Below, in pieces: positions 846-31,625 of a stretch of DNA of 31,625 bases. The notes under the pieces were generated by a model. That model saw only the letters and a program-made list of their open reading frames with translations. It did not search any database and was not told where the DNA came from. The stretch spans positions 1-31,625 of the IMG/VR virus record IMGVR_UViG_3300031857_000868, one strand, 5' to 3'. How positions within the stretch are numbered: position 1 is the first letter of the stretch; each line of letters starts with the position of its first letter. The translations under genes and the position numbers were made by a program. This DNA is from a virus.

Positions 846-1457
846 GTGCTAAAGTTCAAAGAATATATCGCAGAGAGCGTTAGAGCAGGGAGTCTGTCGA
901 TTTTCGACATCGACGACACTCTGTTCCACACGACGACGCAGGTTCTGGTGAAGAAAGCTGATAAAGTCGTTGAAAAGTTAACTCCAGCTGAATTCAATGT
1001 CTACAAGCTAAAAGACGGCGAAGAGTTTGACTTTGCTCAGTTCCGTTCAGCTAAGATATTCGCTGATACAGCCAAACCTATCGAGAATGTATTCAAAACT
1101 GCTAAGAAGCTGATCAACAAGTTCTCAGTGCACCCAGATAAGCGTATCATCATTGTTACAGCTCGTGCTGATCTTGATGATAAGCAGCTGTTCCTTGATA
1201 CGTTTAAGAAGTATGGATTTGATACTAGAAAAGTTCATATCTATCGCGCTGGTAATATCAAAGCTCCTGGCGCAGAAGCTAAGAAACAAATCATTCGCGA
1301 TCAGATGAAAGGTGGAAACTATAGCATCGTTCGTATGTTCGATGATGCGAAAGCCAATCTAGACAAGTTCATCGAGCTTCACACAGAGTTTCCTAAAGTC
1401 AGCTTCGAAGCATTCCTCATCCACGAAGATGGACGAATCACAAGGTATAACGGCTAA
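846..1457 (+). CDS. HAD-superfamily phosphatase with capsid-targeting peptide
   Basis: Starts with GTG at 846, four bases after the previous stop. The first ten residues, MLKFKEYIAE followed by Ser, closely resemble the T4 IPIII capsid-targeting peptide (MKTYQEFIAE before Ala), which the prohead protease removes. The HAD domain follows at once: FDIDDTLFH at about 20-28 is motif I (DxDxT), IIIVTAR near 101-107 is motif II, and a Lys plus MFDDAKAN near 160-165 fit motifs III and IV. The acceptor could be a nucleotide, a polynucleotide 3' end or a protein. The presence of the tag implies packaging into the capsid, which is inference. Stop and next start overlap as TAATG. Confidence 0.8.
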   Translation: MLKFKEYIAESVRAGSLSIFDIDDTLFHTTTQVLVKKADKVVEKLTPAEFNVYKLKDGEEFDFAQFRSAKIFADTAKPIENVFKTAKKLINKFSVHPDKRIIIVTARADLDDKQLFLDTFKKYGFDTRKVHIYRAGNIKAPGAEAKKQIIRDQMKGGNYSIVRMFDDAKANLDKFIELHTEFPKVSFEAFLIHEDGRITRYNG

Positions 1458-2572
1458 TGTCTTTGAAACCTAAAGATATGATTGTTACAAACAAAATCGT
1501 TTCGGTCGATGACGTTACGAAACAGTTGAACACGAATATACCTAAAAAAGCAAAAGATCCTGTTAGAACTTATCTTGAGTTGTTAGTTGAACACTATGAC
1601 AATCCTACAACAAAATCTAAAGAAGAGATAAAGAAACATTACATCGCAAATAAAACCGCAATCAATGGACAGATGAGTCTCATTAAAAATGACTTTGGTG
1701 AAATTCTTGGAGGAATAGCTACAGTCAAACAAGAGTTGCTAAAGAAATTTTATTCTAAAGTTCCTTTCAAAACCAAAGGCTCATTAGAGTATCCAACAGC
1801 AGCAAACGAACCACTGAAAGATTACTCTGTTTATGTGGGTAAAGATGAATACATAATTTCTGCTAAGATTGCTGGTGCAACAAGCAACACAGTTAAGCCA
1901 CAAGACGTTATCTCTCTCATAGAAAAATCTAAAGTTATACCTCCGAAAAGAAAAAAAGAACTACAATCTACATTAGAGTACAATCTACTTAAAATTCTAC
2001 AAGAAGAAAACACTTTGCGTGGACCAGCTGCAGCACTGTCATATTTTAAAGACAACGCTCCTTCAGCAATGAAAAGTAGAATGAACAAACATATCGAAGT
2101 TAACAAGATACCATCGTACTCTCAATTCCAAAAAGAATTCGCTGATATTTCTAGCAACATTAGTGTAAGTCAGAAAACGTCAAAACCATATCGCGGAACT
2201 GCATACAAAGGCATCGTTGAATCTACGAAGTTTAAAGAATATGGAAAAACACATGGCGTCGGTAAGATAGTTAACTGGGCTGATATAGTTCTATACTTCG
2301 AGTATGTGATTCAAAACGCATCTAAACAAACTCCAAAAGCATTAGACTTCGGAGATCTATTCATCGACGCCATAACATCACAAGTTCACTATGTTAAACT
2401 TTCTATAGACTCTTCTGGTATACCTGTGTTCGAGGCATATGCTTCTGTAACGCCTCCAGGCGGAAAGAACATAAGCAATTTTGATGCAAAAGATATCTAC
2501 ATAAGAAGCAAGAGCAGTAAGTATAAAGATGGAAGATATCGCCTAAAAGATAAGATTGGTATTCAGACATGA
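1457..2572 (+). CDS. Conserved-looking phage protein of unknown function (371 aa)
   Basis: I do not recognise the family. The protein is soluble, Lys-rich (many KSK and KKEL stretches) and has no membrane segment, cysteine cluster or nucleotide-binding motif. Unlike its neighbours it has no 10-residue capsid-targeting peptide. It lies between the HAD phosphatase and the ligase-like gene with overlaps on both sides (TAATG before, ATGA after), so it is translationally coupled to them and probably works with them. The ending resembles a compact beta-rich domain (VKLSIDSSGIPVFEAYASV). Confidence 0.6.
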   Translation: MSLKPKDMIVTNKIVSVDDVTKQLNTNIPKKAKDPVRTYLELLVEHYDNPTTKSKEEIKKHYIANKTAINGQMSLIKNDFGEILGGIATVKQELLKKFYSKVPFKTKGSLEYPTAANEPLKDYSVYVGKDEYIISAKIAGATSNTVKPQDVISLIEKSKVIPPKRKKELQSTLEYNLLKILQEENTLRGPAAALSYFKDNAPSAMKSRMNKHIEVNKIPSYSQFQKEFADISSNISVSQKTSKPYRGTAYKGIVESTKFKEYGKTHGVGKIVNWADIVLYFEYVIQNASKQTPKALDFGDLFIDAITSQVHYVKLSIDSSGIPVFEAYASVTPPGGKNISNFDAKDIYIRSKSSKYKDGRYRLKDKIGIQT

Positions 2573-3801
2573 AGTCATTTCATAGTTATCTGTCGGAAGA
2601 AAAGAATGTTCACATGGAACACATTGAGGATTTGATTCTCAATGCAGGCGTAGATGGCGCAAAGCAAATCTTTTCTTTCCTTTCACAGACGCGCGACATG
2701 CTCGCAGGAAATACAACTAAGAAGATCGCTGCTACTGTAAAGTGGGATGGTGCTCCTGCTATCTTCGCTGGTGTTGATCCACGCGATGGAAAGTTTTTCG
2801 TCGCGAAGAAAGGCATTTTCAATAAGAATCCTAAAGTTTATAAAACACAAGCTGATATCGACGCTGATCTTGAAGGCGATCTAGCTGCAAAATTCAGTGT
2901 TGCTCTTCGCGAGTTTAAGAAGCTAGGAATTACGAAAGGTGTATTCCAAGGCGATCTCATGTTCACGAAGGGTGATGTTCGCACGGAAACAATCGAAGGG
3001 AATAAGTATTACACATTCCAACCAAATACAATCGTGTATGCAGTTCCTATGAATTCTGCTCTAGGTAAAACTATATCAAAAGCAAGCATCGGCGTCGTGT
3101 GGCATACAACATACGAAGGCGCTTCGTTCGAATCTATGAAAGCGTCGTTCGGAAAAGGAATCGTAGAAAAGCTGAATCAAGTGGGTACGATCTGGATGGA
3201 CGATGCTACTTATAAGGACGTCAGCGGAACAGCTACGTTCACTGCTGCTGAAACAGCAGAGTTCAATAAGATCCTTTCGCAAGCAGGAAAAATTTTACAA
3301 AGTTTACCTCGCGAAGCAGTTGATGCTTTTCATAAAGATTCAGAACTGCTACTTCGTGTCAAGACGTACAATAACAGTAAAGTTCGCGCTGGTCAAAAAA
3401 TTACAAACACAACAGCGCACGTATCTGGATTCGTTCACTACATGAACGACTACTATCAGAAAGAAGAAGACAAAAAGAAAACGCCCGCTGGTAAGGCGAG
3501 CGTTAAGGCTAAAAAGATGCAGTCGTTTGGTCCAATCATTCGAACTCCATTTTTACAGCTGAAGTTGATTTTCGATTTTATGAATCTGGTTGTTGACGCT
3601 AAGATGATGATCGTATCTAAGATGAATTCATCAGCCGCTATCAATACGTTCCTGCGCACGCGACAGGGATTGAAAGTTACTTCGCCAGAAGGTTATGTAG
3701 CAGTCGATCACTTGACTGGCGGAGCTGTAAAACTGGTAGATCGTTTGGGATTCAGCCAAGCAAACTTTAGTCCAGACATTATCAAGGGATGGGAACGATG
3801 A
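2569..3801 (+). CDS. Nucleotidyltransferase/ligase-like protein with capsid-targeting peptide
   Basis: 410 residues, starting at an ATGA overlap. It opens with MKSFHSYLSE then Glu, matching the T4 IPIII targeting peptide in length and pattern. The body has signatures of the covalent nucleotidyltransferase (polynucleotide ligase/capping) fold: VKWDG at 57-61 as a KxDG motif I, AKKG at 79-82 in the motif Ia/III zone, VFQGDLMF at 125-132 like the motif III acidic strand, and IGVVWHT at 174-180 like motif IV. QLKLIF later could supply the motif V lysines. Large phages encode such proteins without known function, so ligase activity is inference. It sits beside a phosphatase and an adenylyltransferase-type domain. 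Confidence 0.65.
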   Translation: MKSFHSYLSEEKNVHMEHIEDLILNAGVDGAKQIFSFLSQTRDMLAGNTTKKIAATVKWDGAPAIFAGVDPRDGKFFVAKKGIFNKNPKVYKTQADIDADLEGDLAAKFSVALREFKKLGITKGVFQGDLMFTKGDVRTETIEGNKYYTFQPNTIVYAVPMNSALGKTISKASIGVVWHTTYEGASFESMKASFGKGIVEKLNQVGTIWMDDATYKDVSGTATFTAAETAEFNKILSQAGKILQSLPREAVDAFHKDSELLLRVKTYNNSKVRAGQKITNTTAHVSGFVHYMNDYYQKEEDKKKTPAGKASVKAKKMQSFGPIIRTPFLQLKLIFDFMNLVVDAKMMIVSKMNSSAAINTFLRTRQGLKVTSPEGYVAVDHLTGGAVKLVDRLGFSQANFSPDIIKGWER

Positions 3802-4061
3802 AAAAGTTCTCAGAGTTTATTACAGAAGAAACATACAATCGCGAAAAGCATATAAAGAAACTAGCTAAGATGGCAAAGACTTTGGAAAACCAAATTCGTA
3901 GATCCAACTATAGTGCTAGGAACAGTAAAACTTGGCGACTCATCTATAAGTATGACGATCTAATGCAGGAAATAAAAGATCAAGACTACGAGGGTTGGAA
4001 GAAGTATTGTAAAGATAAAGACTGGAGCATATATCATACAGGTAAAGATTTTCTAGCATAA
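3798..4061 (+). CDS. Small internal head protein candidate (87 aa)
   Basis: Starts at ATG 3798, overlapping the previous stop as ATGA, with GGGA upstream; an in-frame ATG at 3789 is less likely because it would dilute the N-terminal motif. MKKFSEFITE then Glu is again a T4 IPIII-like capsid-targeting peptide with the predicted cut after residue 10. The remaining 77 residues are very basic and helical (KHIKKLAKMAKTLENQIRR) with aromatic residues at the end, consistent with a small DNA-binding core protein packed with the genome. No enzymatic motif is seen. Confidence 0.7.
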   Translation: MKKFSEFITEETYNREKHIKKLAKMAKTLENQIRRSNYSARNSKTWRLIYKYDDLMQEIKDQDYEGWKKYCKDKDWSIYHTGKDFLA

Positions 4062-4120: not shown

Positions 4121-4128
4121 TATAAATA
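4121..4128 (+). promoter_or_regulatory. T4-type late promoter box TATAAATA
   Basis: Exact TATAAATA, 77 bases before the ATG of the 1225-aa polyprotein, in the only sizeable gap of the left-hand late region. It would start transcription near 4134, inside the base of the following hairpin. Confidence 0.75.
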
Positions 4129-4204: not shown

Positions 4205-7200
4205 ATGAAGAGCGTCGTGTTCACCTTCGGGCGTATGAATCCGCCCACTACAGGTCATCAGCTGCTTGTAAACAAGCTGGTCGCATATGCTCGCTCACAC
4301 AGCGCGACTCCTCGCATCTATCTGTCCCATTCAGTCGGACCTAAAGATCCCCTACAATACGATAAGAAAATAGCGTTCGCTCGAGCAGCATTTGGTGCGC
4401 TCGTTAAGAAGTCGAACGCTCGCACTTTCATTGAAGTTCTCAAACAGCTCGATAAAGAAGGATTCAAGAACGTAACGATGTTCGTTGGATCTGATCGTGT
4501 TGTTCAGTTCAATAAGTTGCTGCAGCAATACAACGGTAAAGAATACAACTTCGACAAGATTGAAGTTAAGTCTGCTGGCGAACGTGATCCAGACGCAGAT
4601 GACGTATCTGGAATGTCAGCAAGTAAAATGCGCGCACTAGCCAAAGACGATAAAGTCACAGAGTTTCTTCGTGGCGCTCCAAACACACTAAAAGCAGCAC
4701 AAGCTAAGAACATGTTTAAAGCTGTGCGCAAAGCATTACTAGGAGAAGACGTAATGGAATACGGACACAACGAACGTTTTCTTGAGTTCATTTTTGAATC
4801 CGATATGAAAGAAGATGATATGAACGATCTTCCTTCTGACGGAGAAATCTCGAAGCACTTTGATTCGCTTGGTGCTGATGATCTTGAGCTTGATGACGCC
4901 GACGCAATGATGCTTGATATTCTGCTTGGTGATGAAGAAGATGATAAGGAAGATATCGAAGAAGCTAAAGTTCTTTCTATTCAGCAGCGTCAGAAACTCG
5001 CACAGCGCATGAAGTCAATGAGCAAGCGTCTTGCTCGTCTTCGTCAGATCAAAGCAAAACAAATGCCAGCTGCTCAGCGTCTTCGCATGCGCGCGCGAAA
5101 GGCTGCTCTTATGATTCTTCGTAAGCGCGCAACAGGTAGAAAAAATCTTGAATACAGTTCGCTGTCAAAATCACAGCGTATCGCAGTAGATACAGCTCTC
5201 GTGCAACGTTTTGGCAAAAATCTCAACACACTCGTAGGTCGTTTGGCTACAAGATTGATGCCACGAGTTCGCAAGCACGCGCAGGAATACATGAAGAAAT
5301 CAAGAGAAGAAACCAAAGAGTCATTCGTTGCTGAGGCAAAAGAAAAAGAAGGATCAGCTAAAGACGTAGCTCAGGATAAGATCCAAGCTGCAAAGCGTGG
5401 TATGTCTGTTTCAGATTGGGAAAAGACAAAGGCTGATGCTGCTCACGATTCTCCACTGAACATCGATCCGACCAGGCTGGATACGCTGTCGATTGATCCT
5501 ACGAAAAATGATCGTGAAGCACCAAATCCTAAGCAAGGTCATTTGCATCTGAACAGAAAACTTTCACACTACGCCCGTTCTGTTGATGAAGGTCGTAAAG
5601 GAACTGTTGATCAGCAAGATTCTGGCGATACTAATATCATGTATCAGCTGCGTAAAGTTCTCATTTCTCGCGGTAATCACGAAGTAGAGTTTGCCGATAA
5701 GTCGAAGCATAAGATTTCTGTTTCAGACGCAAACAAGATGCTTGATAAGTTTGCTGCTACTCGTATGCCAGCAGATAAGCATGAGATGACAATCCAAGCT
5801 GGTAAGTCGCTTTCTTCATTCAAGAACGTTCTTGCTCATGGAATCGAAAAGCAAAAGAAAAAGATTTCACTTGGCGGAAAGAACTTCAAAGAGTTTTATC
5901 TCGGTGTAGGTCGTTCACGCACTGTATCAGCATATGATAACGACGAGCCGCCTGGAGTTCGCAGAGTAGCCGAAGCTGCTAAGGATGAAGATCGTCCAGA
6001 AAATCCTAATCGTTCGCGTCCACTTTCACAGAAGCTCGATCTGCTGCTGCGCCTTGGTCTTTCTGATGCTGAAGATTTACAGAAGTATCGCCGTGCGCTG
6101 CGTTCGTCAAAGAAAGCTGCACTTCAGTCACCAGAGATGCGCGAAAAGCTCGCTGATCTGCTCGACAAACTGATTGATCTTACAACACAAGATCCAGCGA
6201 CATATTCACGTGTTCGCTATCGTGTTCAAACTAAAGAAGCGTATGCGCTTCTCAATAAAGCCGAAAAGTCTGGTGTTGACGTAGATATCATCTTCGAAGT
6301 GTTTGCTCGTGGTTACGAACAGAACGAAGATATCAACGAAGCGTTTAATCGCGTCAACTCATTCATTGCTGGCGGAAAGGCTGCTGAAATGGATAAGGAT
6401 CTTTCTGAAAAGCGCGGACTCTGGGATAACATTCATGCGAAGCGTGAAAGAATCAAAGCTGGTTCGGGTGAGCGTATGCGCAAGCCAGGATCTAAAGGAG
6501 CACCAACTGACGCTGCGTTAAAAGCGTCACAAACTGAAGACAAAGATCCATGCTGGTCAGATTATAAGCAAGTTGGCATGAAGATGAAGAACGGTCGTCA
6601 GGTTCCTAACTGTGTTCCGAAAGAAGAAGCTGTTTCTGAAGTTGTTGTATCTAGAAAAATGACGCCAGCAGAAAGAAAAGCGCACGCTAGTTATGTTGCT
6701 CAACATATCAGAAAAGTTGCTGCGGCAACTCCTGATGATAAACCTGCTAAAAAAACAATGAAGGATATTTCTAAAATTTCTCATAGCGATTACACACATC
6801 AACCAAGTAAGATGGCTAGCGTCGGTTATGATAAGCATGAATCGACACAGCAGCAGAAAGCAGCTGGCGCTGCTCTTGCTACACAGCGTGGAGAATATGC
6901 TGGCGGTAAGAAGGGTGGAGCTATCAATCGTATGTCTCTTATGAAGACAAAGGATCTAGTTAAGCTCGCTCGCGGCAAAAAGGTGAAGGAAGAAGTTGTT
7001 GATGAAGTCAATCGTCGTGTTGACGTGAAGCTCGTAAAAGTTAAGCAGCCTGATGGTAAGATTGTTTATCGCAAGGAACATCCAAAGACAGCAGTTCAGA
7101 TGGAAGCAACACATCCACATCCTGTTGTTCAAAAAACACATCCGCATCCTACTGGAAAAGTTCCGTATGCTGGACAAACGAACAAGGAACTTCGTGATGC

Positions 7201-7882
7201 GCTTCCTAAGAAAGTGAAAGCTGCCAGCGAAGCATATACAGGATCGGAGCCAGCATCAAACAATACAGCTGATCCAGCGAATCGTTTCGTAGGAACAAAT
7301 TCCATTCGTCAAAATTATGCGAACGTAACTCCTGGTCAAGGATCGGCTGCTGGTGAAATTGCTGTGGCGAACTTCGCTCCAGAAAAAGTTGACTACACTT
7401 CTTCTATGTCTAAGAAAACACATGCAGAAGTAGATCAGTCGAAAGACAATCTCTCTAAGAAACACTTCAGCGATATCCGCAAGGCGCTTGGTGGTATTCG
7501 TGAGTCAAATGAATTAAACGAATCATTCTCGGCAGGTTTTGAACTTGCTCCATTCGCGCGCGACTACGGAATGAAAGTTCAATCAGCTTTCGAACATCAC
7601 CCTGAAGTTCAAGAACAGCTTGATGCAATGGAAGCTACATATAAGGGAAAGACAGTTCCTTTGAATAAACCTATGAAGGGTGATGTCAAAAAATCTAAGG
7701 TTTACGTTGATCCAGATGGTGACGGTAAAGCTAAGAAAGTAAACTTCGGTGATAAGAAGCTAAGTATTAAAAAAGGAATTCCTGCTCGCAAGAAATCATA
7801 TTGCGCTCGATCTAGTGGGCAAGGTAATTTGACAGATAAATCGAGTGCTAACTATTGGTCCCGTAGGGCATGGGATTGTTAA
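4205..7882 (+). CDS. Giant virion polyprotein with N-terminal nucleotidyltransferase domain (1225 aa)
   Basis: ATG 4205 has GAGGAG seven bases upstream, better than the first in-frame ATG at 4166. Residues 1-190 form a cytidylyltransferase/NMN-adenylyltransferase-type domain: FGRMNPPTTGH at 8-18 is the (H/N)xGH-type nucleotide site and SGMSASKMR at 135-143 the SxSxxR-type motif. The rest is low-complexity, Lys/Ala/Glu-rich, with prohead-protease-like sites after 253 (DIEE), 377 (FVAE), 590 (RVAE), 812 (AVSE), 934 (VVDE) and 1106 (ELNE). Familiar phage head modules follow: RGLWDNIHAKRER near 737, a CW...NCV segment at 783-804, and a C-terminal KKSYCARS...WSRRAWDC block with Cys1200 and Cys1225. 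Probably cut into several internal proteins during head maturation. The enzyme domain has no targeting tag of its own. Confidence 0.75.
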   Translation: MKSVVFTFGRMNPPTTGHQLLVNKLVAYARSHSATPRIYLSHSVGPKDPLQYDKKIAFARAAFGALVKKSNARTFIEVLKQLDKEGFKNVTMFVGSDRVVQFNKLLQQYNGKEYNFDKIEVKSAGERDPDADDVSGMSASKMRALAKDDKVTEFLRGAPNTLKAAQAKNMFKAVRKALLGEDVMEYGHNERFLEFIFESDMKEDDMNDLPSDGEISKHFDSLGADDLELDDADAMMLDILLGDEEDDKEDIEEAKVLSIQQRQKLAQRMKSMSKRLARLRQIKAKQMPAAQRLRMRARKAALMILRKRATGRKNLEYSSLSKSQRIAVDTALVQRFGKNLNTLVGRLATRLMPRVRKHAQEYMKKSREETKESFVAEAKEKEGSAKDVAQDKIQAAKRGMSVSDWEKTKADAAHDSPLNIDPTRLDTLSIDPTKNDREAPNPKQGHLHLNRKLSHYARSVDEGRKGTVDQQDSGDTNIMYQLRKVLISRGNHEVEFADKSKHKISVSDANKMLDKFAATRMPADKHEMTIQAGKSLSSFKNVLAHGIEKQKKKISLGGKNFKEFYLGVGRSRTVSAYDNDEPPGVRRVAEAAKDEDRPENPNRSRPLSQKLDLLLRLGLSDAEDLQKYRRALRSSKKAALQSPEMREKLADLLDKLIDLTTQDPATYSRVRYRVQTKEAYALLNKAEKSGVDVDIIFEVFARGYEQNEDINEAFNRVNSFIAGGKAAEMDKDLSEKRGLWDNIHAKRERIKAGSGERMRKPGSKGAPTDAALKASQTEDKDPCWSDYKQVGMKMKNGRQVPNCVPKEEAVSEVVVSRKMTPAERKAHASYVAQHIRKVAAATPDDKPAKKTMKDISKISHSDYTHQPSKMASVGYDKHESTQQQKAAGAALATQRGEYAGGKKGGAINRMSLMKTKDLVKLARGKKVKEEVVDEVNRRVDVKLVKVKQPDGKIVYRKEHPKTAVQMEATHPHPVVQKTHPHPTGKVPYAGQTNKELRDALPKKVKAASEAYTGSEPASNNTADPANRFVGTNSIRQNYANVTPGQGSAAGEIAVANFAPEKVDYTSSMSKKTHAEVDQSKDNLSKKHFSDIRKALGGIRESNELNESFSAGFELAPFARDYGMKVQSAFEHHPEVQEQLDAMEATYKGKTVPLNKPMKGDVKKSKVYVDPDGDGKAKKVNFGDKKLSIKKGIPARKKSYCARSSGQGNLTDKSSANYWSRRAWDC

Positions 7883-8183: not shown

Positions 8184-8624
8184 ATGGAACAGCTCGTAGA
8201 GGCACTCAAGAAGGCGCAAGCTACTAGCTTTGCGTTTTATCTGAAAGCTCATAACTATCACTGGAACGTGGAAGGTGCGAACTTCTCAGAGTATCATGCA
8301 TTCTTGGGTGATCTCTACGCTGAAGTTTGGGGTGCGGTTGATGCTATCGCAGAACACATCCGCACCCTAGACGCCTATGTTCCTGGATCGTTCATTCGTT
8401 TCCAGCAACTATCTTCGATTGAAGATGAACAGAGCGTTCCTACTGGTCGTGCTATGATGGCAAGATTACTTGCTGACAATCAGCGCGTCATCGGTGATCT
8501 CATGGCAGCTCATCGCGAAGCTGAGATGCTTGGTAAGCGCGGAATCGTAAACTTCATCGAAGATCGTATTGATAAGCATGACAAACATGGTTGGATGCTA
8601 CGCTCATTTACTAAAGGCGACTAA
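8184..8624 (+). CDS. dps: Dps-family ferritin-like DNA-protection protein
   Basis: 146 residues, the short end of the Dps family. Dps forms 12-subunit shells that oxidise and store iron and shield DNA from peroxide damage. The ferroxidase ligands fall at the family spacing: His26 (in HWNVEG), His38, Asp53 and Glu57, matching E. coli His51, His63, Asp78 and Glu82. The ending DKHGWMLRSF is typical. AAGGAAGGG precedes the start, and the stop overlaps the next ATG as TAATG. A basic N-terminal tail is absent, so DNA binding may depend on partners such as the upstream basic-tailed protein. Its place among late genes suggests action during assembly or packaging in the virion, which is inference. Confidence 0.88.
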   Translation: MEQLVEALKKAQATSFAFYLKAHNYHWNVEGANFSEYHAFLGDLYAEVWGAVDAIAEHIRTLDAYVPGSFIRFQQLSSIEDEQSVPTGRAMMARLLADNQRVIGDLMAAHREAEMLGKRGIVNFIEDRIDKHDKHGWMLRSFTKGD

Positions 8625-10208: not shown

Positions 10209-11591
10209 ATGTCAGTAGATCCAAAGAAGTTTGGTCTTACGCCATCTCTTGTAGAAACCGTAAAGGAAGCTCTCAAGGGCGATCAGCATAAGATTGATGC
10301 TAACAAGAATGGTAAGATCGACGCGCAGGATTTTAAGAAACTGCGCGGAGAAGAATTAAAAGGCGATCAGCATAAGATTGATAAGAACAAGAATGGTAAA
10401 ATCGACGCTCACGATTTCAAACTTCTTCGTAAGAAGAATGATACGAAATTAGTTGCTAAGCCTCAATACGATAAAATGCGCCCTGCTTTTAAAGAAGAAG
10501 TTGAGCAGATTGATGAAAAGGTAAAAACAACACACGAAAACCCTCTTGTCACAGTTCATGATAAAGATGGTCTTCATACTCACGCCAATCTTTCTACAGC
10601 AAATAAGATTTTTAACACTAAAGTTAAACATACTGATGTGCATGCTGGACCAGTAAAGACAAAAGATGGTCATGAAACAAAAAATAATTTAACATTTGCT
10701 ATCTCAAAGCATCATGCGTCTGCAATGAAAGAAGAAGTTGAGCAGGTCGATGAAATTTCGAAAGCGACTCTTGGTTCATATGTAACAAAGGCGGCTGGTT
10801 CCGCAGCTACGCATACTGGCGCAGCAGCTGCTTATGGTGGTTCTAGCAAGAGCCCAGATCCAAAGAAGATGGCTCAGCATCAAGCTATTGCAACAAAGCG
10901 TACGACTGGTATTCAGAAAGCAGTTGGCAAGCTGACTAAGGAAGAAGCTGAACAAACTGATGAAGCAATGTCGCCAAAGCAAAAGGCACATTCTAATCGT
11001 CTGAAGAACAATCCTGGACGTAAAGGTAGCGTGTTTGATCCATCATCAAACTTCGATGCACCTAACCACAAGGTTGATGTTGTAGTTTCTAAAGATAATA
11101 AAAAAGAAACTAAAAATGATGTCGTGCAAGCTAAAGATAAGCACGATGCTATGTTTAAAATTCAGATGAAGTATCATAAGATGGGCTATAAAGTCCATGA
11201 TACTAAACACAAAGGTACAGTGAAAGAAGAAACAGAAATCACTGAAGCCGAAGACGCAGTAGCAAAGCAGATTGCTGCTAAGAAGGATGCGATGCAGAAG
11301 CAGATTCAGCAGAAGATCGCTCAGAAGCAGATGTCAGCAATGCAAGCTAAGGCTAACAAGCGTCTGTCGAGCATCAATGCTAGCAGCCATGATGATGAAG
11401 AAATGAAGAAGGGTGGTAAGGAAAAGATTGAAATCAATCCACCACTCAAGGAAGCTGAAGAGCTACCTAAGGCTGTAGTTAAGAAGGGACACGAAATCGC
11501 TAAGTCGCTGATCAAGCACCGCGCGAAGGTTCGTGAACCATATGCTGTCGGTATGGCAACAGCTAAGAAATCAGCTGGTATCAAAGACTAA
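10209..11591 (+). CDS. EF-hand-bearing polyprotein of the virion (460 aa)
   Basis: Two tandem calcium-loop repeats open the protein: DANKNGKIDAQD at 30-41 and DKNKNGKIDAHD at 58-69, EF-hand/dockerin type with Asp at position 12. Then come four VEQ(V/I)DE-like or ITE sites: QIDE ending at 103, QVDE at 182, QTDE at 252 and EITE at 346 before Ala, all resembling prohead-protease cuts. Residues 175-245 repeat the module of the 133-aa protein at 441. The remainder is Lys/Gln-rich and helical (QKQIQQKIAQKQ at 364-375). No enzyme domain is visible. Likely a core polyprotein processed into several pieces, with the calcium sites perhaps stabilising one of them. Confidence 0.7.
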   Translation: MSVDPKKFGLTPSLVETVKEALKGDQHKIDANKNGKIDAQDFKKLRGEELKGDQHKIDKNKNGKIDAHDFKLLRKKNDTKLVAKPQYDKMRPAFKEEVEQIDEKVKTTHENPLVTVHDKDGLHTHANLSTANKIFNTKVKHTDVHAGPVKTKDGHETKNNLTFAISKHHASAMKEEVEQVDEISKATLGSYVTKAAGSAATHTGAAAAYGGSSKSPDPKKMAQHQAIATKRTTGIQKAVGKLTKEEAEQTDEAMSPKQKAHSNRLKNNPGRKGSVFDPSSNFDAPNHKVDVVVSKDNKKETKNDVVQAKDKHDAMFKIQMKYHKMGYKVHDTKHKGTVKEETEITEAEDAVAKQIAAKKDAMQKQIQQKIAQKQMSAMQAKANKRLSSINASSHDDEEMKKGGKEKIEINPPLKEAEELPKAVVKKGHEIAKSLIKHRAKVREPYAVGMATAKKSAGIKD

Positions 11592-11989: not shown

Positions 11990-12370
11990 ATGGCTGACAA
12001 GAAAGTATCACAGCTTACAGCATTGACGACCACAGCGGCTCCAGATCTGCTGATGATTGTCGATGATCCGAACGGAACACCAGTATCGAAGAAGATCACA
12101 GTAAAGAGCTTCTTCGGTTCTGTTCCTTCTAATACTGTATTCAGCGCAAACGTAACTGTATCTGGTAACAGAGTACAGCTTGCGTCAAACGTAAACATCA
12201 CAAAAACGCTTACAGCCAACACAGTCAAAATCACGTTTGGTACTACTCCAGGATCAAACAATGCGACTTCTGTTGGTATGGCTGTTGGTGAAATGCGTTT
12301 CACGAATACTCATTTGTATATCGCAGTGAATGCGACAACAATCAAGCGCGTAGCATTGAGCACATTCTGA
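11990..12370 (+). CDS. Virion protein, fibre-like beta-structure (126 aa)
   Basis: The start SQLTALTTTAAPDLLMIVDD is the opening typical of phage fibre or head-decoration proteins; it is followed by Thr/Val/Asn alternation (NVTVSGNRVQLASNVNI) that suggests a beta-helix or fibrous trimer. No enzymatic residues. Ends in a TGATG overlap with the holin candidate, so it is the last structural gene before the lysis block. Confidence 0.6.
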   Translation: MADKKVSQLTALTTTAAPDLLMIVDDPNGTPVSKKITVKSFFGSVPSNTVFSANVTVSGNRVQLASNVNITKTLTANTVKITFGTTPGSNNATSVGMAVGEMRFTNTHLYIAVNATTIKRVALSTF

Positions 12371-12705
12371 TGTCGATTGAAGCAGCAGGATCATACGTCG
12401 CAGCTAAGTCTGCATCAGCAGCTGGTGGTTTGCTTGGCGGATTGACTATGTTTGCGTTCATGAAACCAGCAACAATTTTAGATGCCACTATTCGTGGTGG
12501 CATCTGCACAGGCTCCGCAATTATATTTGCTCCGATTCTTTGTGAATACATTAATACTGAAATTACAGTTGAGCATCTAGTAGCAGCTGGAGCAGTTATC
12601 GGATTTTTAGCATGGGGCGTGTTGTCGATGACAGCACGCTTTTTCATTAAGGCAGAAGCGACCAACAAGGATATCGTGGAGGCCGCTAAGGAAATTAAAA
12701 AGTGA
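12370..12705 (+). CDS. Holin candidate (111 aa, three membrane segments)
   Basis: Three hydrophobic segments at about 15-33, 42-60 and 68-92, the first Gly/Ala-rich, and a charged C-terminus (KDIVEAAKEIKK). Size, topology and charge fit a class I-like holin that opens the inner membrane at lysis. It lies upstream of two spanin-like genes, which supports this. It could also be an unrelated small membrane protein, as there is no sequence-specific holin motif. Confidence 0.5.
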   Translation: MSIEAAGSYVAAKSASAAGGLLGGLTMFAFMKPATILDATIRGGICTGSAIIFAPILCEYINTEITVEHLVAAGAVIGFLAWGVLSMTARFFIKAEATNKDIVEAAKEIKK

Positions 12706-12706
12706 A

Positions 12707-13096
12707 ATGAAGGGTAAGTTGGACGATAACAATTTTTTTCTTTATGCTGCACATCATTATTTGAATCCATGTGTTGATGAGCAAGAGTTCCTAGATGATT
12801 TGAACAGAATCAAAAATCTTCGTAGACTTTTTGGTCGCTATGAAAAACACGGAGAGCTCAAAGAACGATTGATCATAAACCACTTGATGGTTCTATACAA
12901 TGTGTTTGAGCATAAGGCTTTGACGCGGATGCTTGCGTTTAAGTTGTACGATCAACTTCACATTCTTAAACCTTTTCTTATGTTATTGAACTACTGGCCC
13001 GATCTTATAGAAAACATTGGTTCTGATAATTACACGATTAGATCTAACGAAGTCGTTATGGATATGCGAGTAATCGACGTTCTGAGGAAAATCTGA
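12707..13096 (+). CDS. Conserved T4-like phage protein (129 aa)
   Basis: The pattern HHYLNPCVDEQEFLDDLNRIKNLRRLFGRY (core NPCVDEQEF and RRLFGRYEKHGELKERLI) with NHLMVLYNVF is a widespread conserved hypothetical in T4-like phages (DUF7207-like). All-alpha, soluble. No catalytic motif. TGATG overlap with the next gene. Confidence 0.65.
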   Translation: MKGKLDDNNFFLYAAHHYLNPCVDEQEFLDDLNRIKNLRRLFGRYEKHGELKERLIINHLMVLYNVFEHKALTRMLAFKLYDQLHILKPFLMLLNYWPDLIENIGSDNYTIRSNEVVMDMRVIDVLRKI

Positions 13097-28481: not shown

Positions 28482-29046
28482 AGATGAGAAACGTCAATAT
28501 GCCCGCGAATACTACAAGAAAAACAAGAGCAGAATACTAGAAAAAGCTCGGCTTTGGAGAGAATGTAATCCAGAGCGCGCACGGGAAAACGCAAGAGCTT
28601 GGGCGCGAAAGAATCCTGATAAAGTAAAAGAAAATGCTCGAATCTGGAGAGAAAACAACTCAGAGTATCTTAAGGAACGTTCTAAAGAATATCACAGCAA
28701 ACTGAAAACTGATCGCTCTAGGATGGCACAAGCTCTCTACTATAAAACCAAGAGCGCAACGAAAAGATTAACGCGAACGTTAGAAAACAATCTCACGATT
28801 GAATATATACAGTCGCTCCTAGAAAAACAGAACTATCGTTGTGCTCTGAGTGGCATTGAACTTGATCATAAAGCTGGCACAAATGGTTTGCGAGTTGCTT
28901 CTGTAGACAGGAAAAATTCTAAGCGTGGCTACGTCAAGGGAAATGTTCAAATAGTATTGAACTGCTTAAACAAGGCCAAAGGTGATGCGTCCAACATGGA
29001 GTTTCGTGAGCTCTTGTTGGAAATCAAAAAGACAAAGGTCGCGTAG
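28474..29046 (+). CDS. HNH homing-type endonuclease
   Basis: AAAGGAA precedes ATG. The N-terminal 65 residues repeat a NPERARENARAWARKNP-like unit about three times, a known DNA-binding preamble of phage HNH enzymes. The HNH core is RCALSGIELDH, ASVDRKNSKRGYVKGNVQI and LNCLNKAKGD, with His near 132 and Asn near 157. The gene ends inside tRNA-Arg, whose first bases encode its last codons. Typical of homing nucleases next to tRNA arrays. Confidence 0.85.
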   Translation: MTKDEKRQYAREYYKKNKSRILEKARLWRECNPERARENARAWARKNPDKVKENARIWRENNSEYLKERSKEYHSKLKTDRSRMAQALYYKTKSATKRLTRTLENNLTIEYIQSLLEKQNYRCALSGIELDHKAGTNGLRVASVDRKNSKRGYVKGNVQIVLNCLNKAKGDASNMEFRELLLEIKKTKVA

Positions 29047-29113
29047 CTCAGCAGGATAGAGCAACAGCCTTCTAAGCTGTGGGCCGAAGGTTCGAGTCCT
29101 TCCGCGATCGCCA
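29037..29113 (+). tRNA. tRNA-Arg (TCT)
   Basis: Acceptor GGTCGCG/CGCGATC with a G-T pair, discriminator G and CCA. Anticodon loop CTTCTAA reads AGA. The first ten bases overlap the end of the HNH gene. Confidence 0.93.
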
Positions 29114-29132
29114 CTTGACAATGGAGATGAAA

Positions 29133-29417
29133 GTGACTAAGATAGTGTATAATGCTTGTTGGGGTGGCTTTGGTCTTTCTAAGGCTGCGTGGGAACGATA
29201 CGTTGAACTTGGCGGAAAGGCTGAAAGCGAATATGATGTTTCGCGCACAGATCCTATTCTTGTGCAAGTCGTAGAAGAATTAGGCACGGATGCTGATGGA
29301 GAATATGCTGAATTAGCCATCGCTGATGTTCCTGCTGGGACTAAATACCGTATCGACGAATATGACGGATTTGAATCTGTCAGGACAATCGACGACTATG
29401 ATTGGAGCGTAGCATGA
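29133..29417 (+). CDS. Conserved-looking small phage protein (94 aa)
   Basis: GTG 29133 has GGAG six bases upstream; ATGs at 29121 and 29127 in the same frame lie before that site. The start TKIVYNACWGGFGLSKAAWERY is a frequent phage opening, followed by a LGTDADGEYAEL and a compact Asp-rich end (DDYDWSVA). Function unknown. ATGA overlap with the lipoprotein gene. Confidence 0.6.
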   Translation: MTKIVYNACWGGFGLSKAAWERYVELGGKAESEYDVSRTDPILVQVVEELGTDADGEYAELAIADVPAGTKYRIDEYDGFESVRTIDDYDWSVA

Positions 29418-29728
29418 AAAGAATTATCGTAGCCTCACTTATCGCGCTTGGTCTTGCTGGTTGCACACCGCGCGAACAGCAGCTCGTCGCTGCTGGTGCT
29501 GTAGGTGCGCTTGCTGGTGCAGTCGTAGCGAATGGCGTGTCCGAATCTTATGATCGCACACACTATCGTTCGCGCCCATATGATCCATACTATGCTCCGC
29601 CGCGCCCATACTACCATCCGCGACCCGCATACAATCCGTATGTGTATCATGCGCCTCGTCATCCACGTTGCTATATCGTGGATCGTCATACGCCGTATGG
29701 TATTCGTCGCGAGCGAATCTGTCGCTGA
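29414..29728 (+). CDS. Tyr/Pro/Arg-rich lipoprotein (104 aa)
   Basis: ATG 29414 is preferred over an in-frame TTG at 29402. Signal peptide with lipobox LAGC (Cys17), a Gly/Ala-rich hydrophobic segment (AAGAVGALAGAVVANGV), then a PYYAPPRPYYHPRPAYNPY stretch. It probably sits on the inner face of the outer membrane or in the periplasm. Superinfection immunity lipoproteins look like this, but the link is inference. The stop lies at the start of tRNA-Lys. Confidence 0.7.
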   Translation: MKRIIVASLIALGLAGCTPREQQLVAAGAVGALAGAVVANGVSESYDRTHYRSRPYDPYYAPPRPYYHPRPAYNPYVYHAPRHPRCYIVDRHTPYGIRRERICR

Positions 29729-29805
29729 GGACTCTTAGCTCAGTAGGTTAGAGCAGCGGTCTTTTAAACCGAAGGTCCTGGGTTCGAGTCCCAGAGAGTC
29801 CACCA
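29729..29805 (+). tRNA. tRNA-Lys (TTT)
   Basis: Acceptor GGACTCT/AGAGTCC, discriminator A, CCA. Anticodon loop CTTTTAA reads AAA. Confidence 0.95.
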
Positions 29806-29822
29806 ATTTGATAAAGAGCGAC

Positions 29823-30017
29823 ATGATGACTTCTTACAAGATCCGCGTTCATAATTTTCCTGGTATCAATGTCTGGATTAAAGCTTTAGATGAACAAACA
29901 GCTTTAATAGAGGCGAAGTTGAAAATTATATCTATTTGTAAGAAAGACAAGATTGAAATTCCTTCAGAATGGAATCTTGAAATAGTCGATACAATGCCTC
30001 CTGTAGCTCAAAGGTAG
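29823..30017 (+). CDS. Small protein (64 aa) running into tRNA-Ile
   Basis: ATG 29823 has AAAGAG upstream; a TTG at 29808 is less likely. Soluble alpha/beta, no family (MMTSYKIRVHNFPGINVWIK at the start). The last 21 bases lie in tRNA-Ile, so tRNA and protein sequences constrain each other. Possibly a host-takeover gene. Confidence 0.5.
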   Translation: MMTSYKIRVHNFPGINVWIKALDEQTALIEAKLKIISICKKDKIEIPSEWNLEIVDTMPPVAQR

Positions 30018-30070
30018 AGCAGGCGGTTGATAACCGTCAGACCGAGGATCGTTACCTCGCGGGAGGACCA
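29997..30070 (+). tRNA. tRNA-Ile (GAT) with odd T-loop
   Basis: Acceptor CCTCCTG/CGGGAGG, CCA encoded. Anticodon loop TTGATAA reads AUC. The T-loop is ATCGTTA instead of TTCRANY; positions 54 and 58 are A and T, so the usual T54-A58 pair is replaced by A54-T58. Confidence 0.85.
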
Positions 30071-30079
30071 ATAAAAATC

Positions 30080-30108
30080 TTGACAACCAAGAGTCAATGA
30101 AATATGAT
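30080..30108 (+). promoter_or_regulatory. Promoter of the main tRNA array
   Basis: TTGACA (30080-30085), 17-bp spacer, TATGAT (30103-30108). Predicted start near 30115, so it would transcribe hairpin S1 and every RNA from tRNA-Pro onward. Confidence 0.8.
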
Positions 30109-30157
30109 ACTAAATATGGTGATTCGCTGTTTGACAATTTAATCTGGTAGAAACAAC

Positions 30158-30203
30158 GTTATGAAACGACTATAAGTAATGCTACTGTTAGCCGTTTTAT
30201 AAC
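30158..30203 (+). ncRNA. Spacer S1: hairpin RNA before tRNA-Pro
   Basis: GTTATGAAACG (30158-30168) pairs with CGTTTTATAAC (30193-30203), 11 bp with one G-U pair; inside, AGTA (30175-30178) pairs with TACT (30183-30186). It fills the gap between the promoter and tRNA-Pro. Processing signal or small RNA. Confidence 0.45.
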
Positions 30204-30208
30204 ACATA

Positions 30209-30285
30209 CGGAGATTAGCGCAGTCTGGTAGCGCATCTGCTTTGGGAGCAGAGGGTCGTAGGTTCGAATCCTGCATCTCCGACCA
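30209..30285 (+). tRNA. tRNA-Pro (TGG)
   Basis: Acceptor CGGAGAT/ATCTCCG, CCA encoded. Anticodon loop TTTGGGA reads CCA. Confidence 0.95.
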
Positions 30286-30290
30286 ATTAC

Positions 30291-30380
30291 GGAAGAGTGG
30301 CAGAGCGGTTGAACGCCTCGGTCTTGAAAACCGATATACCTTCACGGGTATCGTGGGTTCGAATCCCACCTCTTCCTCCA
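30291..30380 (+). tRNA. tRNA-Ser (TGA)
   Basis: Acceptor GGAAGAG/CTCTTCC, long variable arm as expected for Ser, CCA encoded. Anticodon loop CTTGAAA reads UCA. Confidence 0.95.
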
Positions 30381-30387
30381 TAACGAG

Positions 30388-30498
30388 CCCTTTAGTGTTG
30401 AAACAGACTAGGGTGATGGTGAATGATTCTCTCCTTCCTGCAGGTTACAAGGAGACACTTAAATAACCATCCGTTGCCAGACTACGATAGTGTTCTGG
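30388..30498 (+). ncRNA. Spacer S2: multi-hairpin RNA
   Basis: Between tRNA-Ser and tRNA-Asn. Hairpin one: CCCT/AGGG and AGT/ACT (30388-30413, with bulges). Hairpin two: GATGGT (30415-30420) with ACCATC (30466-30471), enclosing TCTCCTT (30430-30436) with AAGGAGA (30449-30455). Hairpin three: CCAGA (30477-30481) with TCTGG (30494-30498), inner CTA/TAG. No tRNA cloverleaf. A stable small RNA like T4 RNA C or D is suggested. Confidence 0.55.
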
Positions 30499-30507
30499 AG
30501 CTTTTAT

Positions 30508-30583
30508 TTCCCGATAGCTCAGTTGGTAGAGCAAGCGACTGTTAATCGCTTTGTCCTAGGTTCGAGTCCTAGTCGGGGAGCCA
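30508..30583 (+). tRNA. tRNA-Asn (GTT)
   Basis: Acceptor TTCCCGA/TCGGGGA with discriminator G, CCA encoded. Anticodon loop CTGTTAA reads AAC. Confidence 0.92.
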
Positions 30584-30587
30584 ATAC

Positions 30588-30662
30588 GGTCCGTTAGCTC
30601 AGTGGAAGAGCAACTCCTTTACACGGAGAAGGTCGGCAGTTCAACCCTGTCACGGACTACCA
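30588..30662 (+). tRNA. tRNA-Val (TAC)
   Basis: Acceptor GGTCCGT/ACGGACT, CCA encoded. Anticodon loop TTTACAC reads GUA; one A-A mismatch at the base of the anticodon stem. Confidence 0.9.
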
Positions 30663-30737
30663 TCGTGCCTCCACGAGCCCAATGGGAACACCTCGGCACA
30701 GTAGGTTGACAGTTATCCTACGGAGAAAAACTGTCAA
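30663..30737 (+). ncRNA. Spacer S3: RNA with competing stems
   Basis: Between tRNA-Val and tRNA-Ala. TCGTG/CACGA (30663-30676) or GTGCC/GGCAC (30665-30699) at the 5' side; TTGACAGTT (30706-30714) pairs perfectly with AACTGTCAA (30729-30737). GTAGG (30701-30705) can pair with CCTAC (30717-30721) in its loop, giving mutually exclusive or pseudoknot-like states. Confidence 0.5.
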
Positions 30738-30742
30738 GTTTT

Positions 30743-30818
30743 GGGGCCATAGCTCAGTTGGGAGAGCGTCTGCTTTGCAAGCAGAATGTCGGCGGTTCGA
30801 TCCCGTCTGGCTCCACCA
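30743..30818 (+). tRNA. tRNA-Ala (TGC)
   Basis: Acceptor GGGGCCA/TGGCTCC with a G-T pair, CCA encoded. Anticodon loop TTTGCAA reads GCA. Confidence 0.95.
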
Positions 30819-30820
30819 TA

Positions 30821-30906
30821 ATTTCGTATCTAGCAGACGTGTGAAAGCTCAGAGAAGGTGAATAGGGAAGTCGCGCTCCCGAAGGGCTGGAGAGTTGATA
30901 CGAAAT
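30821..30906 (+). ncRNA. Spacer S4a: RNA closed by a 10-bp stem
   Basis: ATTTCGTATC (30821-30830) pairs perfectly with GATACGAAAT (30897-30906), enclosing 66 nt that hold GGGA/TCCC (30865-30880) and an alternative CCC-GAA-GGG (30878-30886). It starts two bases after tRNA-Ala and looks like one compact RNA domain. Confidence 0.55.
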
Positions 30907-30908
30907 AT

Positions 30909-30971
30909 CTAACTATAGGAGATACGGTTGGTCGCGTTAAATAGACTCGCGTGGGTCCACGGTTAGCCCAC
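30909..30971 (+). ncRNA. Spacer S4b: possible pseudoknotted RNA before tRNA-Thr
   Basis: CTAAC (30909-30913) can pair with GTTAG (30962-30966), and GTGGG (30951-30955) with CCCAC (30967-30971), which cross. CGCG (30933-30936) can pair with CGCG (30948-30951). Short stems, so less certain than S4a. Confidence 0.4.
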
Positions 30972-30980
30972 AACAGTTTC

Positions 30981-31056
<76 letters not shown>

Positions 31057-31063
31057 GTTGTCT

Positions 31064-31222
31064 ATTTGTAGGGTTGGGATCCTACAAATCGCCGATCATG
31101 TTAACAGCTGGCTGCGGCCATGATCGGATATGGTGACTAGCCACCGAGGTCTAGATAGCAGCCGTCTAATCCCGTTGAACCTACTCCGCGAAAAGGGAGA
31201 TGCTGGATGGCAGTAACCAGCA
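31064..31222 (+). ncRNA. Spacer S5: RNA with five consecutive hairpins
   Basis: Between tRNA-Thr and tRNA-Asp. ATTTGTAGG (31064-31072) with CCTACAAAT (31081-31089); CCGATCATG (31092-31100) with CATGATCGG (31119-31127), both perfect 9-bp stems; GGTG/CACC (31132-31145); CTCC/GGAG (31184-31199); TGCTGG (31201-31206) with CCAGCA (31217-31222). The strongest small-RNA candidate in the window. Confidence 0.6.
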
Positions 31223-31232
31223 CCAGAATTTT

Positions 31233-31308
31233 GGCTTCGTAGCTCAGTTGGGAGAGCGCTGGCCTGTCACGCCAGAGGTCGCGGGATCGAGACCCGTCGA
31301 AGTCGCCA
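31233..31308 (+). tRNA. tRNA-Asp (GTC)
   Basis: Acceptor GGCTTCG/CGAAGTC, discriminator G, CCA encoded. Anticodon loop CTGTCAC reads GAC. T-loop ATCGAGA has A at position 54. Confidence 0.92.
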
Positions 31309-31309
31309 T

Positions 31310-31385
31310 TGGGGATTAGTTCAGTTGGTAGAACGCCAGACTCTGACTCTGGATGTCCGAGGTTCGAGCCCTTGATCCCCAGCCA
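31310..31385 (+). tRNA. tRNA-Gln (CTG)
   Basis: Acceptor TGGGGAT/ATCCCCA, discriminator G, CCA encoded. Anticodon loop CTCTGAC reads CAG. One base after tRNA-Asp. Confidence 0.93.
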
Positions 31386-31387
31386 AT

Positions 31388-31462
31388 GTTCCCTGAGCGA
31401 GACGGTAACGCGCAGGACTGCAAATCCTTGAGAATCCAGTTCGACTCTGGAAGGGAACTCCA
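31388..31462 (+). tRNA. tRNA-Cys (GCA)
   Basis: Acceptor GTTCCCT/AGGGAAC, discriminator T, CCA encoded. Anticodon loop CTGCAAA reads UGC. Confidence 0.93.
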
Positions 31463-31469
31463 TCTAATT

Positions 31470-31544
31470 GCGGAGGTAGCTCAGTGGTAGAGCTCTTGCT
31501 TGCCAAGCAAGTGGTCGTGGGTTCGATCCCCATTCTCCGCTCCA
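31470..31544 (+). tRNA. tRNA-Gly (GCC)
   Basis: Acceptor GCGGAGG/TCTCCGC, discriminator T, CCA encoded. Anticodon loop TTGCCAA reads GGC. Second Gly tRNA in the window. Confidence 0.95.
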
Positions 31545-31548
31545 ATTT

Positions 31549-31625
31549 GCCCTATTAGCCCAACTGGTAGAGGTGTCGGTCTTAGAAACCGAAGGTTGTA
31601 AGTTCGAATCTTACATAGGGCACCA
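31549..31625 (+). tRNA. tRNA-Leu (TAG), short variable loop
   Basis: Acceptor GCCCTAT/ATAGGGC, CCA ends at the last base of the window. Anticodon loop CTTAGAA reads CUA. Variable region 5 nt (AGGTT), as in the other tRNA-Leu; the two share a TAGCCCAAC-GG-AGAGG D-arm and look like paralogues. Confidence 0.9.

Follow-up and report, generated by a model that had tools for sequence, protein, structure and literature searches.

Introduction

In bacteriophage T4, the internal proteins IPI, IPII and IPIII carry a capsid-targeting sequence (CTS) in their ten N-terminal residues, with an aromatic residue at positions 4 and 7, Ile or Leu at position 8 and Glu at position 10, and such sequences are already known on varied proteins in T4-like phages of enterobacteria. 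Mutational mapping in T4 assigned residues 4 and 7 mainly to targeting and residues 8 and 10 to processing, while the prohead protease gp21 cuts after L/I-x-E (PMC9026906). Here we describe a tag of this form on three neighbouring proteins of a 31.6-kb virus fragment with 43 genes from a T4-like environmental phage (IMG/VR record IMGVR_UViG_3300031857_000868, referred to below, over its whole length of 31,625 nucleotides, as the window). Very probably, this tag is a T4-type CTS that would direct late-expressed enzymes into the phage head and from there into the next host.

The locus resembles the T4 internal proteins in that a single tag is found on unrelated proteins, that these appear to be encoded by late genes and that head packaging is supported for their homologues; positions 4 and 7 are occupied by aromatic or bulky hydrophobic residues in the window and its relatives. 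In contrast to the T4 internal proteins, two of the three window cargoes are predicted catalytic enzymes, and the residue after the cut (P1'), which is Ala in T4, is often Glu, Ser or Gln in the window and relatives. The T4 cargo of known function consists of small inhibitors of the GmrSD restriction enzyme (PMC12373910). Enzyme delivery has been described for the T4 ADP-ribosyltransferase Alt, which travels in the core of the head and reaches the host at infection (PMC9026906); the Alt propeptide is shorter than the window tags and of another sequence, and the enzyme families differ.

Cyanophage particles have repeatedly yielded enzymes as well, namely NMNAT-like proteins, kinases, a SAM (S-adenosylmethionine) hydrolase and a Cas9-annotated protein, for which the authors could not decide between cargo and contamination and for which the proteome papers describe no packaging signal. 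The NMNAT/cytidylyltransferase, APH-like kinase and SAM hydrolase among these virion enzymes (S-CREM2, S-SZBM1 and S-SCSM1, together with the S-CRM01 kinase) bear the same tag as the window proteins. An NMNAT homologue adjoins the gene for DUF6267 (PF19782), a family without an assigned function, in many phages; in cyanophages DUF6267 is untagged, unlike that of the window. Capsid targeting in marine or freshwater T4-like phages, cyanophages or Kyanoviridae has no earlier report in the open literature, a scope that leaves most subscription journals outside. Within that literature, a capsid-targeting tag beyond the enterobacterial T4-like phages would be new, and as a sequence-based proposal it may explain the enzymes of cyanophage virions.

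Results

Three window proteins begin with a T4-like tag

The tags lie at the following positions.

846 to 875, + strand: tag MLKFKEYIAE, residues 1-10, predicted cut after Glu10; kept in aligned relatives
2569 to 2598, + strand: tag MKSFHSYLSE, near-universal among 80 relatives
3798 to 3827, + strand: tag MKKFSEFITE, also present in relative L002 as MKKFSEFIVE

An earlier note, made from the DNA letters alone, had placed the three tags at residues 1-10 and likened them to the T4 IPIII peptide. Both points were confirmed, the former in the open reading frames (ORFs) 846-1457, 2569-3801 and 3798-4061, and the latter by comparison with NC_000866, in which IPII reads MKTYQEFIAE/AR and IPIII MKTYQEFIAE/AS (the slash marks the cut); all three window tags agree with these at the four mapped positions 4, 7, 8 and 10. 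The start codons and the residues past the tag are GTG and Glu10/SV at 846, ATG and Glu10/EK at 2569, and ATG and Glu10/ET at 3798, so that the note was correct in giving Glu after the cut at two sites. Glu at P1' is common in relatives, where it follows 22 of 78 DUF6267 tags and 11 of 63 other tags. The start of the last gene was taken at 3798, the first ATG in the mechanical ORF list being at 3789.

The tags were scored with a position matrix derived from DUF6267 relatives, which contributed 54 distinct tags; the window was excluded. The 846, 2569 and 3798 tags scored 22.4, 14.9 and 22.3, compared with -6.8 for the next-highest N-terminus among the 43 window genes and a top score of 4.7 among 8,663 internal window 10-mers, and a scan of 697 candidate starts across the window returned scores of at least 9 only at these three positions. 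The score at 2569 shows conservation, because the family of this protein (DUF6267) supplied the matrix; the 846 and 3798 tags belong to proteins outside that family and are independent tests of it.

The tag recurs in relatives and on unrelated families

A nucleotide search of the phage collection with the window gave no match, and relatives were gathered by protein, as 80 IMG/VR loci with DUF6267 relatives at 50-86% identity. The tag starts nearly all of their DUF6267 proteins and is retained at 47-89% protein identity in the DUF6267 and HAD comparisons. The residues conserved in these relatives are F/L4, F/Y7, L/I8 and E10, and the variable ones are those that are unimportant in T4. Among unrelated proteins encoded nearby, the tag is found on the HAD protein in seven other loci, on NMNAT/cytidylyltransferases, on a P-loop kinase resembling zeta toxin, on an HD-domain protein of RelA/SpoT type, on a possible ParB-like protein and on several further families that lack a Pfam match.

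Tagged enzymes are found in published virion proteomes

The virion proteomes of three cyanophages, S-CREM2, S-SZBM1 and S-SCSM1, whose authors do not mention the tag, allowed packaging to be assessed in relatives. S-CREM2 has 52 virion proteins among 219 ORFs (PMC10665884). Its six top tag scores belong to ORF154 (cytidylyltransferase), ORF13, ORF14 (APH-like kinase), ORF6 (SAM hydrolase), ORF175 and ORF136, and five of these six, all except ORF175, were detected in virions (P=0.003); the detected ORF13 and ORF136 are proteins of unknown function. Looser tag patterns gave weaker enrichment (P=0.012 to 0.039). A rank-sum comparison of tag scores in S-CREM2 was not significant over all virion proteins (P=0.70) or over the non-structural ones only (P=0.13); since tail and shell components, which need no tag, make up most of the virion proteins, it is the test at the top of the list that is informative. 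In S-SZBM1, the detected cytidylyltransferase starts with MRFRQFIIE/A, and the adjoining untagged DUF6267 protein (397 aa) is absent from the 30 detected proteins (PMC9146016). The detected NMNAT of S-SCSM1 starts with MKSFLQFLKE/A (PMC9602691). With the three proteomes pooled, seven of 11 tagged proteins were detected against 2.2 expected (P=0.0016). The Cas9-annotated virion protein of S-CREM2, ORF12 (OR473000 7704-10313), has a tag at residues 16-25, as does S-CRM01 g128, and in both proteins an RWSNWS-type leader is found; the Cas9 label is an annotation only.

Tagged genes of relatives are associated with late promoters

Two T4-type late promoter cores flank the cluster.

400 to 407, + strand: T4-type late promoter core TATAAATA, upstream of the gene that opens the cluster
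4121 to 4128, + strand: second late promoter core TATAAATA, ahead of the cytidylyltransferase gene

Two TATAAATA sites within the window alone are near chance. Among the 80 relatives, the core lies at most 120 nt upstream of 31 of 132 tagged genes, where about 3 would be expected from its background density, and the core occurs 152 times on the coding strand versus 11 times on the opposite one; the tagged genes of relatives also often lead their cluster. The promoter cores of the relatives, taken together with the window site at 400, suggest that tagged genes tend to be expressed late.

Major capsid proteins of relatives share the cleavage motif

Melnitz-3 is a complete T4-like phage with a tagged DUF6267 protein (INFSKYITE/D) and a tagged 361-aa protein upstream of it (MQGFKTFLSE/A). 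It has an annotated prohead protease, and its major capsid protein (MCP) contains FLSE/A where maturation cleavage is expected. The L/I-x-E form recurs at the MCP sites of C48C1 (FLTE/T), HTVC008M (FLGE/I), DLP_6 (LLGE/A), G029 (MISE/T), S-CREM2 (LLTE/A) and S-SCSM1 (FLAE/A). The rule is thus seen in the MCPs of relatives, the window itself holding no capsid gene.

Discussion

Proposed mechanism and alternative explanations

The capsid-targeting reading proposed in the earlier note is supported by the conserved T4 positions, the non-homologous carriers, the MCP sites, the late promoters and three proteomes. Packaging of tagged proteins is well supported by homology, and for the phage of the window itself we infer it. 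According to this model, the tagged proteins would be made late, from a late-expressed cluster, and would dock on the prohead core through tag residues 4 and 7, after which a gp21-type prohead protease would cut behind Glu10 by the L/I-x-E rule, the mature enzyme would stay in the head, and it would enter the next host along with the DNA. As tagged enzymes are present in the particles of distant relatives, phages of the window type are likely to deliver preformed enzymes into the host along with their DNA. Once inside, the PNK (polynucleotide kinase)-like phosphatase and the RNA-ligase-like enzyme might act immediately on cleaved RNA or DNA ends, countering nuclease-type defences of the host; repair of cleaved ends at the onset of infection seems the most likely cargo role, as a weaker proposal than packaging. 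T4 Pnkp and the T4 RNA ligases offer a parallel, in that a PNK-profile HAD phosphatase and a ligase-like nucleotidyltransferase are encoded close together; in contrast to the T4 enzymes, the kinase domain is absent, sequence similarity is very low and packaging is predicted.

Several observations weigh against capsid targeting. Four short tagged proteins escaped detection in virions, namely S-CREM2 ORF175 (55 aa), two from S-SZBM1 and one from S-SCSM1, and the NMNAT of S-CBWM1, a phage outside Kyanoviridae, was found in virions without a tag. The virion detections concern other tagged enzymes, not the tagged DUF6267 or HAD protein, and there is no published N-terminal peptide that proves the cut. 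Neither a protease nor a capsid gene turned up in the 31.6-kb fragment; when the window record was queried for the prohead protease family, nothing matched, which is expected for a fragment and is uninformative, as the controls were silent too. Finally, the earlier note had named homologues lacking the tag as evidence against its proposal, and untagged DUF6267 proteins do exist in S-PM2, P-HM2, S-SZBM1, S-CRM01 and XaC1. The tag, however, is an N-terminal extension that can be detached from the protein, and in S-SZBM1 the untagged DUF6267 protein went undetected while its tagged neighbour was detected, which fits capsid targeting.

The missing short proteins, two of which are mutual homologues from two phages, also fit a model in which the tag delivers core or scaffold components to the prohead that are degraded or expelled at maturation and never reach the host, much as gp21 fragments the core proteins of T4 (PMC9026906). 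We regard this model as unlikely, given that the tagged SAM hydrolase, kinase and NMNAT/cytidylyltransferases were found in CsCl-purified virions and that catalytic residues are conserved in the DUF6267 and HAD proteins, which would be unexpected of a scaffold. The proteome detections could themselves be uninformative about the tag if abundant soluble proteins stick to particles, a concern raised by the S-CREM2 authors, who weighed packaging and could not exclude co-purification (PMC10665884). Contamination would, however, not favour tagged N-termini, as seen in the S-CREM2 top ranks and in the pooled excess over the three phages, and it is quite unlikely to account for the result.

The shared N-terminus might instead dock onto another phage complex, such as that of replication or late transcription, with packaging being incidental, and the DUF6267 locus does adjoin DNA polymerase, uvsX and gp41 in several phages. 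The four-position match to the T4 CTS, the motif shared with the MCP sites, the late promoters and the tagged enzymes in virions speak against such a role and make it very unlikely. Many phage proteins have a lysine-rich start, so that the likeness of the three N-termini could in principle stem from chance or common ancestry, through gene duplication or start-codon context. This is extremely improbable, as the three proteins come from separate families, internal window 10-mers score far below the tags, and the pattern occurs in 54 distinct versions across relatives.

Given that capsid targeting remains the preferred explanation, the ten-residue tag might serve as a packaging predictor, that is, as a sequence rule by which injected enzymes could be listed across a very abundant phage group, and the proteins so listed would be candidates for counter-defence in the first minutes of infection. 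The tags may also provide alternative signals for loading proteins into phage heads, and the rule is open to direct test in the cultured phages Melnitz and DLP_6, both of which have a tagged DUF6267, and S-CREM2. As a broader and decidedly tentative proposal, DUF6267-bearing T4-like phages from marine, freshwater and soil habitats, many of them Kyanoviridae, might possess a modular late operon whose tagged products, many of them enzymes, are injected. In the phage of the window, the injected set would include a phosphatase that heals ends and a ligase-like enzyme, both at work against RNA- or DNA-cleaving defences before phage gene expression.

Genes of the cluster and their predicted products

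411 to 842, + strand: untagged first ORF of the cluster, with a EQVDELSKKTLASYTSKAA stretch also present in the 10209 protein; no Pfam match, weak PHROG matches only
846 to 1457, + strand: tagged HAD phosphatase, PNK-phosphatase-like by its motifs and by phrog_415 (polynucleotide kinase, 1.3e-10)
1457 to 2572, + strand: 371-aa protein without a tag, encoded immediately before DUF6267
2569 to 3801, + strand: tagged DUF6267 protein (PF19782, 8.5e-104), putative RNA/DNA-ligase-like nucleotidyltransferase
3798 to 4061, + strand: tagged 87-aa basic protein, isoelectric point (pI) 9.4, no family
4205 to 7882, + strand: NMNAT/cytidylyltransferase-like domain (phrog_3041, 3.5e-59) with a long low-complexity tail

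The assignment of the tagged products to a HAD phosphatase, a ligase-like protein and a small basic protein, as first suggested in the earlier note, is backed by motifs for the first two and by the pI of 9.4 for the third. The HAD protein has both the DxDxT nucleophile motif and the acidic motif IV, and DxDDT (D21, D23, T25), TAR (105-107) and FDD (165-167, with D166 and D167) are invariant in relatives; its AlphaFold model is poor (pLDDT 53.5) and too weak for a fold search. The DUF6267 protein matches its profile over the full length from residue 13, leaving the tag outside, with 348 bits versus a curated cut-off of 27. Its conserved residues K58-W-D-G61, Q127-G-D, E374-G375-F-V and K388 are those that we take to be ligase motifs I, III, IV and V, respectively, motif III being QGD where ligases have Glu. 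The AlphaFold model has a pLDDT of 84, with residues 1-15 below 50, so that the tag is predicted to be disordered outside the fold. In a fold comparison with this model (VIA), the 23 leading matches were without exception RNA or DNA ligases, and their Z scores of 5.8-7.5 lie under the safe level of 8; the best Foldseek E value was only 0.059, and a profile search against PDB sequences found no relative. The modelled fold is no more than suggestive of a ligase-type nucleotidyltransferase.

The 4205 protein, the tail of which comprises about 1,000 low-complexity residues, has no N-terminal tag, and no in-frame tag was found when sought upstream; a tag-like ERFLEFIFE/SD occurs internally, some 200 residues into the protein. 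Homologues of the 4205 protein are tagged and, of all the cargo, have the best documentation in virions. Its NMNAT-like domain and DUF6267 are both covered by phrog_455, and the two are hence fused in some phages. The gene slot immediately before DUF6267 encodes an untagged protein in the window and a tagged one in several relatives.

Additional observations

Proteins in this upstream slot (window 1457-2572; L022, L031, L042, L045, L048 and L052) are highly diverse in sequence and often show a D-x(n)-[E/S]-x-K stretch resembling PD-(D/E)XK nucleases. A strongly tagged and conserved protein of about 105 aa (SESVNISGDFNGNLY) is encoded near the terminase genes of S-SZBM1 (NC_070839 122311-122628) and S-SCSM1 (MK867354 44215-44535); it is missing from the virion lists of both phages and may be a core protein that is destroyed at maturation. 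In L052, the product of 12168-12722 has the tag MKTFKKYIAED as well as an HD_4 domain like that of RelA/SpoT hydrolases, and is by sequence a possible head-packaged hydrolase of guanosine tetraphosphate (ppGpp). Tagged P-loop kinases matching AAA_33 and zeta toxin profiles are found at L020:5245-5919, L038:7456 and L055:4171, and HTVC008M has an untagged or short-tagged homologue at the same locus.

Elsewhere in the window, the proteins of 411-842 and 10209-11591 have EEVEQVDEISKATLGSY-like stretches in common and otherwise differ, the latter having two EF-hand-like repeats in addition. The gene for a Dps/ferritin-like protein (8184-8624; PF00210, 2.7e-24) adjoins one for a virion structural protein (phrog_1645), and 14 of the 16 tRNA genes of the window form a dense array at 29037-31625 that reaches the end of the fragment.

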